Program-made: the position numbers and the translations under genes
Assembly: GCA_016185425.1 (NCBI GenBank)
Contig: JACPNQ010000034.1
Span: 124,001 to 188,000, forward strand
DNA from: Acidobacteriota bacterium
GTDB taxonomy: Bacteria; Acidobacteriota; Terriglobia; Bryobacterales; Bryobacteraceae
Reading direction: 5' to 3'
DNA: 64,000 nucleotides
The notes under the pieces: model-generated
The model's input: the letters and a program-made list of their open reading frames with translations, nothing else
Told to the model about the DNA's origin: nothing
Database searches by the model: none
Shown here: piece after piece, positions 20,963-25,769 of the stretch
Numbering within the stretch: position 1 is the first letter of the stretch
Layout of the letters: each line of letters begins with the position of its first letter

Positions 20963-22099
20963 ATGAATCCACCGTTTTCCCGCTACCTCCCCGAAATCTT
21001 CGGCATCTGCCTGGTGCTGATCTGCCATCGCGTGCTGTTGCGCTGGTCGGAGCGCCCGTCCGTGCGCACCTGGATTCGGATCAGCGGCGTCATTTCCGTG
21101 GCGGCGCTGTTGCTCAACCTGCCGTTCGTCTGGCGATTCGTGCCGCCCGGGCCCGCACTCAACTGGGCGCGAGGCGCGGCGATCTTGTGGGCGATTGGCG
21201 TATGCGGCACTACCGCCGCCTTGGCGCTCTCGCGGCGAATGCGCCGAGCCGAGCCGCCGGCCGATCTCGGACGGCGCGGCCTGCTGCAGGCGGCGCAGGC
21301 CGCCGTTGTCGCGGCGCCTGCCCTGGCGCTCGGATACGGCACCCTGTATGAGCGGCGGCGTCTGACTCCGCTGGAAGTGAACCTGTCGATCCCCGGTTTG
21401 CCGAAAGACCTCGACGGTTTGCGCATCGCGCAGTTGAGCGACATACACATGAGCAGTTTCCTTTCCGCCGAGGATCTCTCCGCGGCCGTCGATATGGCGA
21501 ACGGGTTTCGACCGCATCTTGCGGTAGTGACCGGCGACCTGATCACACGCGACGGCGATCCGCTCGATGCCTGCCTGCGTGAGTTGCGGCGGCTGAAGGC
21601 AGACTCCGGCCTCTATGGCTGCCTGGGCAACCATGAGATCTACGCCGGCTGCGAGGACTATACGGCCGGGCAGGCGGCGAAGTTCGGACTCAAGTTTTTG
21701 CGCGGCGAAGCGCGGACGCTGCGCTTCGGCCAGGCGCGGTTACGGCTAGCCGGCGTCGACTATCAAAAGATGCACAGCCCCTATCTGATCGGCGCCCAGG
21801 CGTTGCAGGAACCGGGCGCGTTTCAGTTGTTGCTGTCGCACAACCCCGATGTTTTCGACACGGCCGTGTCACAAGGCTGGAACCTGACGCTCGCCGGTCA
21901 CACACACGGCGGTCAAGTCACGGTAGAGTATCTGAATCAGCACTTAAATTTTGCCCGGTTCTTTACTCCATACGTGTACGGACATTACGAGAAAGAGAAT
22001 TCGCATATCTTTGTGACGCGCGGAATAGGCACCGTTGGTGTGCCTGTCCGGATTGGCGCGGCGCCGGAGGTTGCGTTGGTCCGCCTGTGCGCTATTTGA
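20963..22099 (+). CDS. Membrane-anchored metallophosphoesterase (YkuE-like)
   Basis: A 378-residue protein from ATG 20963. The first ~125 residues hold three or four hydrophobic helices, followed by a twin-Arg-like GRRGLLQAAQAAVVAAPALA stretch. The calcineurin-like core then shows all metal motifs: IAQLSDIHMSS, VVTGDLITRDGD, GCLGNHEIYAG, LLSHNPDVF and LTLAGHTHGGQ. Relatives include YkuE/YaeI-type phosphodiesterases, so a role in envelope lipid or nucleotide turnover is plausible. The last 13 nt overlap the start of a second, soluble metallophosphoesterase gene. Confidence 0.9.
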   Translation: MNPPFSRYLPEIFGICLVLICHRVLLRWSERPSVRTWIRISGVISVAALLLNLPFVWRFVPPGPALNWARGAAILWAIGVCGTTAALALSRRMRRAEPPADLGRRGLLQAAQAAVVAAPALALGYGTLYERRRLTPLEVNLSIPGLPKDLDGLRIAQLSDIHMSSFLSAEDLSAAVDMANGFRPHLAVVTGDLITRDGDPLDACLRELRRLKADSGLYGCLGNHEIYAGCEDYTAGQAAKFGLKFLRGEARTLRFGQARLRLAGVDYQKMHSPYLIGAQALQEPGAFQLLLSHNPDVFDTAVSQGWNLTLAGHTHGGQVTVEYLNQHLNFARFFTPYVYGHYEKENSHIFVTRGIGTVGVPVRIGAAPEVALVRLCAI

Positions 22100-22830
22100 T
22101 CGTAAGCGATATCCATGCCAATTTAGAGGGCCTGCAAGCCGTGCTTACGGCGAACGAAGGCCTTTACGACCAGATCCTCTGCTGCGGAGATTTTGTCGAC
22201 TACTGCGCGAGCCCGAACGAGATCTGCGACTGGGCCCGTGAGCACTGCCAGGTGGTCATTCGCGGCAACCACGATAAAGCCTGCTGCGGCCTGGACGACA
22301 CCGATGACTACAACCCCCTGGCGCAGGCGGCGGTGCAGTGGACCATGGGCCAGTTGACGCCTGACAATCTGGAGTGGCTCCGGCAGCTCCCGCAAGGGCC
22401 AGTGTGGATTGAAGACAAGTTTCAGTTAGTGCATGGCTCTCCTTATGACGAGGACGAGTACCTGCTCGATGTGCAGGAAATCATCCGGGCGCGGCAAGTG
22501 ATGCAGTCGCCGCTGGTATTCTTCGGACATACCCATCTGCAGTGCGCCATCCGCTTCCATGAGGACCAGGGCATGATGCTGCCGACAGTTGGAACCGAGG
22601 AGGAGACATCGCTGATTGAGCTGGAAGAAGGCGACTACTACCTCATCAATCCAGGCTCCGTCGGTCAGCCGCGCGACCGCGACTGGCGGGCGTCGTGCGC
22701 GCTCTATGACAGCACGGAAAACCGCATATTGCTACGGCGCATTCCTTACGATCTGAACGGCGCGCAGCAGCACATTCGCGAATCGGGCTTACCCCCGATG
22801 CTCGCCGAGCGGCTGGCTCGCGGGCAGTAG
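22087..22830 (+). CDS. Cytosolic metallophosphoesterase (YfcE-like)
   Basis: A 247-residue protein starting at GTG 22087, inside the end of the previous gene. The motifs are MRYLIVSDIHANLEGLQAVL, CCGDFVDYC, VIRGNHDKACCG, VFFGHTHLQCA and LINPGSVGQPRDRD, the YfcE/DNA-repair-exonuclease-like metallophosphoesterase pattern with a complete set of metal ligands. No signal peptide is present. Translational coupling with the membrane-bound relative suggests a joint or sequential phosphodiester-cleaving role, but the substrate is unknown. The last 42 nt overlap the 3' end of the convergent uvrC. Confidence 0.88.
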   Translation: MRYLIVSDIHANLEGLQAVLTANEGLYDQILCCGDFVDYCASPNEICDWAREHCQVVIRGNHDKACCGLDDTDDYNPLAQAAVQWTMGQLTPDNLEWLRQLPQGPVWIEDKFQLVHGSPYDEDEYLLDVQEIIRARQVMQSPLVFFGHTHLQCAIRFHEDQGMMLPTVGTEEETSLIELEEGDYYLINPGSVGQPRDRDWRASCALYDSTENRILLRRIPYDLNGAQQHIRESGLPPMLAERLARGQ

Positions 22831-24627
22831 CGCCACGGTTTCGAAGTGTTGACGGATTCGTTGCGCGGCTACCGGGCCGACTTCGCGAACGAGGTCCGCT
22901 TCGCTGGCCGTTCGAACGCGCTCCACGCTACCGAGCGTCTTGAGCAGCTTTTCGACCGTTTTCGGCCCGATCCCACCGATTTCCAACAGTTCTGAGCGCA
23001 GGCGGCTGGCGTCGCGCCGGCTTCTGTGAAAGGTGACAGCGAAGCGATGCGCCTCGTCGCGAACCGTTTGCACGAGATGCAGAACCGGATTGAAGCGGTC
23101 CAGCACGATCGGTTCCTCCTCGCTGCCGTAGACGTAGATCCACTCTTCGCGTTTGGCGATCGACGCGAGCGGCTGATCGGTAATGCCGATCGCTTCGAGC
23201 GCCGCCGCGGCAGCGTGCAACTGGCCGAGTCCACCGTCGATTAACACCAGGCCCGGCATCTTGCCGCCCTCTTCCTGAATCCGGCTGTAGCGGCGCGTGA
23301 CCACCTCGCGCATGGAAGCGAAATCGTCGTTGCCTTCGACGGTCTTGATGATGAATTTGCGATAGTCCGACTTCTTCATGCGGCCGTCTTCCCAGACGAC
23401 CATGCTGGCGACCTTGTCCGTGCCCTGCACGTGCGAGATGTCGAAGCACTCGATGCGCGCCGGATTGAGCGGAACGCCGGTGGCGTCCTCAAACGCGTCC
23501 AGGATCGCCTTCGACGACGGCTTCAGCACGCGGAATCGCGCGTCGAAGCAGTGCTTGGCGTTCGTCCCGGCGAGATCGTAAAGCGCCTTCTTTTGCCCGC
23601 GTTGCGGCGTATGGATTTCGACTTTGCGTCCGCGCTTTTCGGTGAGCAACTCTTCCAGCGCTTCGCGGTCTTCGAAGTCGGCCGGCACGTGGATGATCGC
23701 CGGTACGTATGTCTGGTCCAGATAGACCTGCTTGATGAGCGCGGCCATAAACTCGGACGGATGGAAGGCGAATTGATCCTCCCAATAAAACTCGCGGCGG
23801 TCGACGATGCGGCCGTTGCGCAGGTGAAACAGGTTGACCGCCAGCAGCGGCGGCTCGGCGTAATAGGCGTAGATGTCTACGTCGTCGCCGGAGACAGCGG
23901 CCATCTTCTGGCGGTCATCGAGCTCATCGACAGTCTGGATGATGTCACGCAGCGACGCGGCTTCTTCGAAGCGTAGATCTTCGGACGCGGCCTCCATGCG
24001 CTGGCGGAGATCCTTCGAAAGATCCTTTAAGCGGCCTTCTAGAAACATGCGCACATTGCGAACGGCGGCGGCGTACTCGAAATCCGTCGTGAGGCCAGCG
24101 GCGCATGGGCCGAGGCAGCGGTGGATGTGGTACTGCAGACACGGATTGGGGTGCAGCCTGGTAAGGTCGACTTTGCAGGACGGCACCTTGAAGTGCCGAT
24201 GAATGAAATCGACCACGCGGTGGGCGAGATTGCCCGGAAAGTACGGACCGTAGTAGCTGCCGCCGTCTTTGCGCAATCGGCGAGTAACGAAGACGCGCGG
24301 GTATTTTTCGGCGGTCACCTTGATGTACGGATACGTCTTGTCGTCGCGTAGCAGAATGTTGAATCGCGGTTTGTACTGCTTGATAAGCGAATTTTCGAGC
24401 GCGAGTGCTTCCTTCTCGTTGTCGACGACGATGTAATCGATGTCGCGGGCCTCGCCGATGAGCGTGCCGGTTTTGGAGTCGGAAAGGCTGTCGTCCGAGA
24501 AATAGTTGCGCACACGCGCGCGAAGAATTTTCGCCTTGCCAACGTAGAGAACCGCGCCGTGAACATCCTTGTAGAGATACACGCCGGGCAAGAGCGGGAG
24601 CAGGGCGACTTTATCTTTTAGGTCCAT
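22789..24627 (-). CDS. uvrC: Excinuclease ABC subunit C
   Basis: A 612-residue UvrC. The GIY-YIG nuclease is at the N-terminus (LPGVYLYKDVHGAVLYVGKA). A cysteine cluster follows (C in FKVPSCK, CLQYHIHRCLGPC), as in Fe-S-type UvrC. The UVR motif is FEEAASLRDII, and the RNase H-like 5'-incision domain starts at IECFDISHVQGTDKVASMVV. Tandem HhH motifs close the protein (IGGIGPKTVEKLLKTLG). It makes both incisions around bulky lesions bound by UvrB. The ATG at 24627 is 28 nt from the divergent TPR gene. The 3' end overlaps the metallophosphoesterase gene by 42 nt. Confidence 0.96.
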   Translation of the reverse strand: MDLKDKVALLPLLPGVYLYKDVHGAVLYVGKAKILRARVRNYFSDDSLSDSKTGTLIGEARDIDYIVVDNEKEALALENSLIKQYKPRFNILLRDDKTYPYIKVTAEKYPRVFVTRRLRKDGGSYYGPYFPGNLAHRVVDFIHRHFKVPSCKVDLTRLHPNPCLQYHIHRCLGPCAAGLTTDFEYAAAVRNVRMFLEGRLKDLSKDLRQRMEAASEDLRFEEAASLRDIIQTVDELDDRQKMAAVSGDDVDIYAYYAEPPLLAVNLFHLRNGRIVDRREFYWEDQFAFHPSEFMAALIKQVYLDQTYVPAIIHVPADFEDREALEELLTEKRGRKVEIHTPQRGQKKALYDLAGTNAKHCFDARFRVLKPSSKAILDAFEDATGVPLNPARIECFDISHVQGTDKVASMVVWEDGRMKKSDYRKFIIKTVEGNDDFASMREVVTRRYSRIQEEGGKMPGLVLIDGGLGQLHAAAAALEAIGITDQPLASIAKREEWIYVYGSEEEPIVLDRFNPVLHLVQTVRDEAHRFAVTFHRSRRDASRLRSELLEIGGIGPKTVEKLLKTLGSVERVRTASEADLVREVGPVAAQRIRQHFETVALLPASQPLGEHRG

Positions 24628-24655: not shown

Positions 24656-25033
24656 GTGGCACGCCGCCTGCTCCTTTCCTCGATTTTGAGCCTGTTTACG
24701 CTGGTTGCGCAGAAGCCGCCGGCGACGGCTCAAGAGCCGCCGGAGGAAGATTCGACATTAGTGGAACCCAAGGAGTACACCTTCAATCCGCTGCAGGCGG
24801 AGAAAGAAGTACGCACCGGCAATTTCTACGCCAAGAAGGGCAACTTCAAGGCGGCGGCGACCCGTTACCGGGAGGCCACGAAGTGGAATCCGGGGCTGGC
24901 GGACGCGTGGCTGCGTCTGGGCGAAGCCCTGGAAAAGCGCAAGGACATGAAAGGCGCCAAGGAGGCTTATGCGAAGTACCTCGAACTGGCGCCGGACGCG
25001 AAGAACGTGGAATCGATCAAGAAAAAACTCTAG
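24656..25033 (+). CDS. Small exported TPR protein
   Basis: A 125-residue protein with a GTG start at 24656 and a signal peptide (MARRLLLSSILSLFTLVAQ). Residues ~45-115 carry two TPR helices pairs: AEKEVRTGNFYAKKGNFKAA, then PGLADAWLRLGEALEKRKD and AKEAYAKYLELAPD. It is likely a periplasmic scaffold, possibly a BamD-like or polymer-export accessory, but nothing adjacent specifies the partner. The stop codon overlaps the end of the convergent HU-TIR gene by 4 nt. Confidence 0.85.
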   Translation: MARRLLLSSILSLFTLVAQKPPATAQEPPEEDSTLVEPKEYTFNPLQAEKEVRTGNFYAKKGNFKAAATRYREATKWNPGLADAWLRLGEALEKRKDMKGAKEAYAKYLELAPDAKNVESIKKKL

Positions 25034-25566
25034 CGCCGGAGCATGGCCGCGGCCATGCGCTCCAGGCCCGCGTCGAAGTCTGGAAAGAGATCGACGTATT
25101 GAATCTGGTCGCGGATCTGGCGCGGAACCAGGCAATCGTCCAGACGCACGGGCACGATAAAGATACCATCGAGCGGCTGATTGAGAGCGCAGTCGAGCGC
25201 GTAGCGGAGCTCGGCGTGGAACGTGCCCCGCTTTTCGCTGGACAGCTTGGAAAAGCAGGGCACGAAGAAGTCCGAGTTGCGGATGGCGCGTTCGATAGCG
25301 CGCGGCCAATTCTGGCCGGGCAGCAGCTTGCGGCGATCCATCCAGGGTTCAAAGCCTTTGACGGCGAGGGCCTCGTAGAGGCGGTCGACTTTGGCGGCGT
25401 CCTCGGCGGCGTAGGCGAGGAAGACACGGCGGCGCGTGTCAGCCACGAATTGAAATTCTCCTCCGTCGGCGCGGAAGGTGCCGAGGCCATCGATTTCGAC
25501 GCGGCGGCCTTCGGTGAGACACTGGCGCAGGATTCGGGCCAGTTCATCCATGGTGGCGCGGTTCAC
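25030..25566 (-). CDS. HU-like / TIR domain fusion protein
   Basis: A 178-residue protein with GTG start 25566 overlapping the previous stop by 4 nt; ATG at codon 6 is an alternative. Residues ~6-41 (MDELARILRQCLTEGRRVEI, then DGLGTF) look like the helix plus 'GLGTF' hairpin of HU/IHF-family DNA-binding proteins. Residues ~47-175 form a TIR domain: RRVFLAYAAEDAAKVDRLYE (strand A/helix A), WMDRRKLLPGQNW (BB loop), RAIRNSDFFVPCFS and TFHAELRYALD. E119 in HAEL sits where catalytic NADase TIRs carry their glutamate. By family knowledge TIRs often cleave NAD+ or make cyclic-ADPR signals. Linking one to an HU-type element suggests DNA- or nucleoid-linked sensing, but no function is proven. Confidence 0.82.
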   Translation of the reverse strand: MNRATMDELARILRQCLTEGRRVEIDGLGTFRADGGEFQFVADTRRRVFLAYAAEDAAKVDRLYEALAVKGFEPWMDRRKLLPGQNWPRAIERAIRNSDFFVPCFSKLSSEKRGTFHAELRYALDCALNQPLDGIFIVPVRLDDCLVPRQIRDQIQYVDLFPDFDAGLERMAAAMLRR

Positions 25567-25769
25567 AGCTTTCCCTTTCCCGATTTCGAGAAGTCGAAGT
25601 GTTCCCGATCGCCGGGCGGAAATGTACCGAGGCCCGGAATAGCCGCGGACTGTCCGCGGCGGAGGCGAGAGACAATTTGCGCGACGATATGGTCGAGCTG
25701 ATCGGCCGCGGCGGCGGGCGTAACGCCGGTTGCGCGGGCCAGGCGGCGGATGAGTGCAGACTGTTTCAT
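25563..25769 (-). CDS. Short HU/IHF-like DNA-binding protein paired with HU-TIR
   Basis: A 68-residue protein from ATG 25769. LIRRLARATGVTPAAAADQL and DHIVAQIVSRLRRGQSAAI give the two N-terminal dimerisation helices of HU/IHF, followed by PGLGTF, the conserved turn into the beta sheet. After this the protein ends with a short charged tail (FDFSKSGKGKL) and lacks the long DNA-clasping arms of a normal ~90-residue HU. It may therefore dimerise with HU-type partners, including the HU-like element of the TIR protein encoded immediately downstream and coupled by a 4-nt overlap. Classical chromosomal HU genes are usually not arranged like this. Confidence 0.8.
   Translation of the reverse strand: MKQSALIRRLARATGVTPAAAADQLDHIVAQIVSRLRRGQSAAIPGLGTFPPGDREHFDFSKSGKGKL

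Follow-up and report, generated by a model that had tools for sequence, protein, structure and literature searches.

A short HU-like protein and an HU-TIR fusion encoded as an overlapping gene pair in the Bryobacteraceae

The two genes and their products

The window analysed here is the whole 64,000-nucleotide stretch taken from an Acidobacteriota contig (JACPNQ010000034.1; Bryobacteraceae, "the family" below). On its minus strand lie two genes that the earlier note had described as a same-strand pair with a 4-nt overlap, and both open reading frames are indeed present as described. The upstream gene (25563..25769), recognised as an open reading frame with a match to the Pfam HU model PF00216, encodes a 68-residue HU-like protein that we call the partner. 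The second gene (25030..25566), identified by its open reading frame, Pfam matches and a structure model, starts with GTG and encodes a 178-residue fusion of an HU half to a TIR domain. Both genes share the sequence GTGA, in which GTG starts the TIR gene and TGA stops the small gene. A convergent TPR-repeat gene on the plus strand (24656..25033) and the TIR gene share 4 nt at their ends, and beyond the TPR gene lies uvrC (22789..24627, minus strand), a frequent neighbour; we judge neither to be part of the system. The short TPR gene is divergent from uvrC. Two calcineurin-like phosphoesterase genes with an end-to-start overlap occupy 20963-22830 and are found beside uvrC in many relatives. We found no consensus match to a promoter or terminator at the locus, and the five upstream regions of the pair that were compared can be aligned in patches only. 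Across the window and three close genomes (six pairs), mean dN/dS is 0.09 for the TIR gene and 0.15 for the HU-like gene, which indicates that the gene pair is not a product of chance; the same four genomes give 0.13 for the TPR gene (five usable pairs) and 0.06 for UvrC.

The partner matches PF00216 with 29.7 bits (cut-off 22.4) over model positions 1-55 of 90. Hence, the match stops where the DNA arms would start. A profile built from 34 partners matches solved HU with E=9e-11, and the previous description of a truncated, armless HU/IHF-like protein of 68 residues therefore stands. Its architecture is helix 1, helix 2, a strand, PGLGTF, a short strand and a short tail; the HU body (helices 1-2 and the GFG turn) is present, and the DNA-binding beta arms and C-terminal helix are absent. 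Two motifs stand out in the 157 paired sequences of the enlarged set described below. The aspartate of an AAD motif (residues 21-23; 25701..25709, minus strand), D23, is kept in 154 of 157 partners. PGLGTF (residues 45-50; 25620..25637, minus strand) sits at the place of the dimerization signal of HU; a strict PGLG-like pattern is found in 139 of the 157, with variant turns in 10 more, and the 139 strict sequences have a median of 22 residues after GLG. The net charge of the C-terminal tail in these 139 is at least 3 in 42% and at most 0 in 31%.

In 15 inspected partners the GLG/strand part is lost or degraded and helices 1-2 are kept (L038, L047, L048, L049, L194, L195, L196, L282, L305, L306, L307, L308, L310, L311 and L312); a degenerate turn is still present in L047 and L048. 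These reduced partners include all eight inspected genomes of genus g276 and all three inspected genomes of genus g7. In G566, the fourth genome of g7, the match to the partner profile covers positions 1-58, so this genus is probably mixed. Helix 1 is missing from the partner match in L160 and L309 and looks degenerate in L032; thus, no single element of the partner is invariant. Partners also resemble HU-CCDC81_bac_2 (PF18175), which at E<=0.01 matches 32 of 34 partners and 14 of 38 fusions, but the window partner (24.3 bits) and window fusion (16 bits) both fall below the Pfam cut-off of 35.

The HU half of the fusion (residues 1-44; 25435..25566, minus strand) consists of a helix 2 equivalent, a strand, DGLGTF and a hairpin, with helix 1 missing. 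DGLGTF occupies residues 26-31 (25474..25491, minus strand), and its G29 is found in 156 of 157 sequences. Taken alone, the HU half is below Pfam cut-offs (HU-HIG, 19.5 bits against 26.2). Comparison of the fusion with the partner family by hhalign gave 95.7% probability (E=9e-9) over 41 columns that cover helix 2, GLG and the following strand. The AlphaFold2 model of the window fusion (pLDDT 86.3, pTM 0.77) has an N-terminal helix and three strands followed by a TIR fold; the helix spans residues 3-18 and the strands 23-25, 29-34 and 37-42. The proposal that an HU-like element is fused to a TIR domain is thus upheld for the joining of the two, by the hhalign comparison and the TIR match given below, but has to be narrowed in one respect: only half of an HU fold is present, without helix 1. 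DNA arms are absent from every partner and every fusion seen. The fusion of one close relative reads in two frames (L055, 5905-6447, and L090), through either an assembly error or a recent frameshift.

The TIR domain spans approximately residues 47-176 (25039..25428, minus strand), and is recognised by Foldseek and by the match to TIR_2 (PF13676; residues 48-171, 95 bits, cut-off 28), a model that 38 of 38 orthologues match at E<=0.01. The best Foldseek matches, and so the closest solved structures, are the TIR domains of SPARTA. Profile alignment places Glu119 (codon 25210..25212, minus strand) on Glu77 of CrtSPARTA, which has been named as catalytic (PMC11156904). Including the window, position 119 is Glu in 156 of the 157 paired sequences and Asp in one, in keeping with the earlier naming of E119 as the candidate catalytic residue. 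It lies in a predicted helix (residues 115-128), so that the fusion has the conserved Glu in helix C by which TIR NADases are recognised. W75, D77, G84, W87, F116, P139, R141, C145 and P148 are invariant across the 157. Identity to the window TIR protein falls to about 50% among relatives, with Glu119 kept. The alignment with Glu77 and the conservation of Glu119 support the reading of the TIR domain as an enzyme, and judged from its sequence the fusion probably has NADase-type activity.

Pairing, neighbourhood and distribution

We assembled an enlarged set of 159 distinct TIR sequences, which overlaps the best 80 of 172 named relatives; TIR matches below 150 bits, identical TIR proteins and L081-L086 (other or broken TIR genes, including two pieces from G026) were left out, as L051 and L055 were from an early conservation count. 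Far from being absent from other genomes, an outcome the earlier note had allowed for, the pair occurs widely across the family: 157 of the 159 have an HU-like partner immediately upstream on the same strand, and the two misses are at contig ends, with less than 100 nt before the TIR match. Likewise, 79 of the best 80 of 172 relatives have the partner directly upstream, the one miss being a contig end. With start codons assigned by a script, the genes overlap by 4, 8, 14 or 11 nt in 111 of 157 cases, a pattern consistent with translational coupling. The layout is that of toxin-antitoxin systems, with a small, overlapping and co-inherited upstream partner gene.

Separate profile searches of 237 family genomes found both proteins in 169, the partner only in one, the fusion only in 18 and neither in 49. 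On inspection, 13 of the 18 fusion-only genomes hold a diverged partner (G024, G045, G059, G516, G527, G513, G514, G515, G524, G528, G564, G565 and G605). In G056 the locus is at a contig end, and the matches in G557 and G660 are other TIR genes. The remaining two, G520 (L313) and G026 (L085/L086), have no recognisable HU half and no partner upstream. Joint loss of HU half and partner is a possible explanation, but G520 is 7% contaminated and the TIR gene of G026 is broken over two contigs, so support for joint loss is thin. The one partner-only genome, G646 (L193, 1500-2250), has a decaying copy of both genes beside uvrC, in which the partner has in-frame stops and the TIR gene is recognisable only as fragments. 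Among the other TIR genes of the family, two have no partner that we could find: L314, in which the TIR gene follows what by eye appears to be the end of a protein-kinase domain, and L315, which lacks an HU half.

Among the best 80 of 172 relatives, the convergent TPR gene is present in 46 loci, 44 of which also have uvrC, and 34 loci have neither. Six of these 34 have less than 3 kb of downstream sequence. Within the 74 loci of this set that have enough sequence, uvrC is not seen nearby in 30, and neither TPR nor uvrC is nearby in 28. A role linked to uvrC or DNA repair, considered as a general explanation, was rejected on this last count. The TIR tree, from which L090 and L093 were left out, shows about 10 changes of neighbourhood, at least two of them firm, through which the two genes have stayed together. 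For the 36 loci without the full TPR-uvrC context, the most frequent neighbour cluster, by eye a large outer-membrane-receptor-like protein, covers 10 loci, and the next clusters cover 6 (cysteine-synthase-like, by eye), 5 and 4; this clustering is of limited sensitivity, as it placed the TIR gene in a cluster in 18 of the 36 loci and its antisense frame in 11 more. Since the pair is kept beside uvrC or away from it, and other neighbours recur in at most 10 of 36 loci, the pair is the constant unit.

Where uvrC is linked, the pair appears to have been inherited with it. TIR and UvrC distances are correlated over 41 uvrC-linked loci (r=0.79, a value that none of 2000 permutations reached), which is what vertical descent would produce. 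Eleven genomes without an intact fusion were searched: one has a decayed copy, and in the other 10, all with TPR and uvrC, the roughly 1 kb visible past TPR contains no fusion (uvrC of G498 is split over two contigs).

The fusion profile (E<=1e-30) matches 187 of 237 family genomes, 122 of 148 good-quality family genomes and 64 of 76 genera. One match is found in 176 of the 187 genomes and two to four in 11. A portion of the matches was inspected, and four proved not to be intact fusions (G557, G660, G520 and G026). About one fifth of family genomes lack the pair, among them the good assemblies G025, G043 and G533. As a yardstick, the restriction (defence) domain HSDR_N is found in 13 of 37 family genomes, compared with 28 of 37 for the fusion profile (one of them, G026, broken).

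Of the best 80 of 172 named relatives, 78 are named as acidobacterial groups (Bryobacterales, Solibacter and others). The other two, L102 and L110, are metagenome-assembled genomes named Acidimicrobiia and Arcobacter in which the pair adjoins uvrC at 59-61% identity; these names are probably wrong. In an even sample of 396 genomes from the phylum, 28 match at E<=1e-10. Only in three of these, all from the family, does the match begin at model positions 4-8; the others begin at position 27 or later and cover mainly the TIR part. Of 40 genomes from outside the family, G100 alone carries a full-length copy accompanied by a partner, possibly through transfer or mis-binning. The fusion has no match in 50,697 phage records, and a pattern-based scan of viral contigs found no relative; 14 of 72,556 plasmids have a match, in each case to no more than 80% of the query.

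The earlier note had inferred a role in defence, but our results do not support a defence-system setting. The family-wide distribution, together with the lack of any phage match and of any full-length plasmid match, argues against a mobile defence island. We rejected such an island on distribution: 187 of 237 family genomes match, and the phage, viral and plasmid searches gave the results above. A scan of 10 window neighbours, the PfkB gene excepted, gave no match to PADLOC-DB at E<=1e-5, and TIR distances track those of UvrC in the 41 uvrC-linked loci. Hence, the pair is not patchy or mobile as judged by its distribution, nor set in an island as judged by its window neighbours.

A proposed HU-type switch and its alternatives

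What might hold the two proteins together? HU owes the stability of its dimer to helices 1-2 and its grip on DNA to the arms (PMC5683647), and the GFG turn (GFGKF), termed a 'dimerization signal', contacts helix 2 of the other monomer (PMC7493962). The GLGTF shared by the partner and the fusion sits at the place of this signal, in agreement with the previous suggestion that the two heterodimerise. In one relative, L070, both genes are in one frame, and we modelled the product as a single chain. The pTM is 0.83, compared with 0.77 for the window fusion alone (the two sequences differ). Residues 1-50 of the partner have pLDDT values of 88-92 and the HU half has values of 86-91; 5 of 34 alignment rows cover the HU part of this chain. 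Since a loosely attached domain should lower pTM, the tandem value favours, within the model, a defined packing. Covariation between the two proteins is weak: the HU half accounts for 5 of the 10 highest-ranking inter-protein pairs (2.3 expected), 13 of the first 50 (11.6 expected) and 31 of the first 100 (23.1 expected). Overall, we consider it quite likely that partner and fusion form a physical heterodimer.

We propose that the armless HU-like protein and the HU half of the fusion bind each other through the HU dimer surfaces, that is, helices 1-2 and the GLG turn, with the fusion supplying helix 2 and the GLG/strand part and the partner supplying helices. TIR NADases need self-association in order to act (PMC11156904); because of this, an HU-type heterodimer that holds the TIR domain in a set assembly state would let partner occupancy decide whether the TIR domain consumes NAD+. 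The partner, made first from the overlapping upstream gene, would restrain the TIR domain until a stress or infection signal removes or remodels the partner. We lean slightly towards restraint of this kind; that the partner instead assembles the TIR domain is a tentative reading, a little short of an even chance. Use of the pair in a stress or immune response is rather likely. As a whole, the reading of the locus as an obligate two-protein module, in which an HU-type heterodimer sets the activity of a NADase-type TIR domain, has in our estimate a probability of about 0.55. With less assurance, and below even odds, we suggest that an armless HU heterodimer with one half fused to a TIR NADase is a dedicated protein-protein switch, retained over the history of the family and serving core chromosomal control of NAD+, whether as an immune guard or as an everyday signal, and not a mobile defence island.

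An alternative explanation, put forward in the earlier note, is that the heterodimer acts as a DNA sensor, either gripping abnormal or phage DNA or residing on the nucleoid, with DNA binding switching the TIR domain. The HU fold itself, the basic C-terminal tails in part of the partners (the 42% of 139 with net charge of at least 3) and the sensing of nucleic acid by some TIR systems, such as SPARTA (PMC11156904), are consistent with this idea. However, neither protein has DNA arms, the basic tail is not general (net charge is at most 0 in 31%), and the window genome has three other, near full-length HU matches. Moreover, the 15 inspected partners without an intact GLG/strand part keep helices 1-2; together with the missing arms, this suggests that HU here means contact, not DNA. 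We therefore regard a DNA sensor as improbable. The idea that the TIR domain only assembles, so that the pair is a structural or regulatory complex without catalysis, has a precedent in TIR domains that act as scaffolds (PMC8494770), but the persistence of Glu119 in 156 of 157 sequences, even as identity to the window protein drops to about 50%, makes it improbable.

The remaining alternatives concern what the pair is for. The partner could be a dedicated inhibitor, as in a toxin-antitoxin system or a phage-triggered guard, whose loss or titration by phage or stress leads to abortive depletion of NAD+. The small, overlapping upstream gene would suit such a role, as would the constancy of the pair when no other recurrent neighbour exceeds 10 of 36 loci outside the uvrC context, and there is a parallel in that the TIR NADase SpbK is inhibited by Nip, a phage protein for which an HU-like dimerization domain is predicted (PMC11984713). 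By contrast, the pair is family-wide, vertical in the uvrC-linked set and under purifying selection, with matches neither in phage or viral sequences nor, at full length, in plasmids, and the authors of Nip state, in their account of its contact with SpbK, that no confident interaction model was obtained (PMC11984713). A dedicated inhibitor is thus possible but doubtful. Could the pair instead serve everyday signalling, with a TIR domain that makes a low-level NAD-derived signal or regulates NAD+, a structural partner and no role in defence? Its presence in 187 of 237 family genomes and 64 of 76 genera, mostly as one match (176 of 187), its tracking of UvrC and its excess over HSDR_N in the 37-genome yardstick (28, including the broken G026, against 13) all point this way. 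Yet absence from about one fifth of genomes, including the good assemblies named above, indicates that the pair is not essential, and no downstream pathway gene is known; such a role seems unlikely. The obligate two-protein module remains our preferred reading.

Relation to known systems

Bacterial TIR proteins have mostly been studied within mobile, patchy antiphage systems. For a TIR effector, the type of partner seen here appears to be new, and its distribution over the whole family is unusual. Our searches of the open-access literature found no published account of an HU-like/HU-TIR pair, and the earlier note likewise knew of no described system in which an HU-type fold is the sensor; a 2017 survey of HU clades by Burroughs and colleagues may mention HU-TIR fusions. 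Our data suggest that a fold otherwise used for packing DNA has come to serve here as control partner for an immune-type enzyme, in a chromosomal pair inherited in most sampled genomes of the family.

SPARTA, which combines TIR-APAZ with a short prokaryotic Argonaute, is among the closest known systems: its TIR domain is the closest solved one by fold and among the closest by profile, its catalytic Glu77 aligns with Glu119, and, as proposed here for the fusion, its TIR domain is controlled through a partner-bound module. However, the fusion has only HU and TIR matches and no APAZ match, its partner is HU-like, and no Argonaute is among the 10 window neighbours scanned, so that the APAZ and short Argonaute that define SPARTA are not found here. 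With Thoeris ThsB and other antiphage TIR proteins the fusion shares a TIR domain with a candidate catalytic Glu, and it partially matches PADLOC and NCBIfam models; unlike Thoeris, it is encoded by a family-wide chromosomal gene, and no ThsA-type effector, as Thoeris requires, was found among the same 10 neighbours (PADLOC-DB, E<=1e-5).

Compared with HU/IHF (PF00216), the partner has helices 1-2, the strand and the GLGTF turn but lacks the DNA arms and the C-terminal helix, and its counterpart is a TIR protein with an HU half that has no helix 1. A further HU variant, prokaryotic domain 2 of HU-CCDC81 (PF18175, 70 positions), is matched by most partners, whereas the window proteins score below its cut-off. 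A TIR protein that is kept in most of a family, is usually the sole close match in its genome and has a dedicated HU-derived partner offers a clean system for asking what a resident TIR protein does. The pair is also a system for asking how a DNA-packing fold turns into a protein switch, and the partners reduced to two helices point at the likely contact surface. Nip, as described in PMC11984713, is similar to the pair, as read here, in having a predicted HU-type dimerization domain in a protein that controls a TIR NADase, SpbK, and differs in being phage-encoded and in carrying two SH3-like domains besides; it makes a wider link between the HU fold and TIR control testable.
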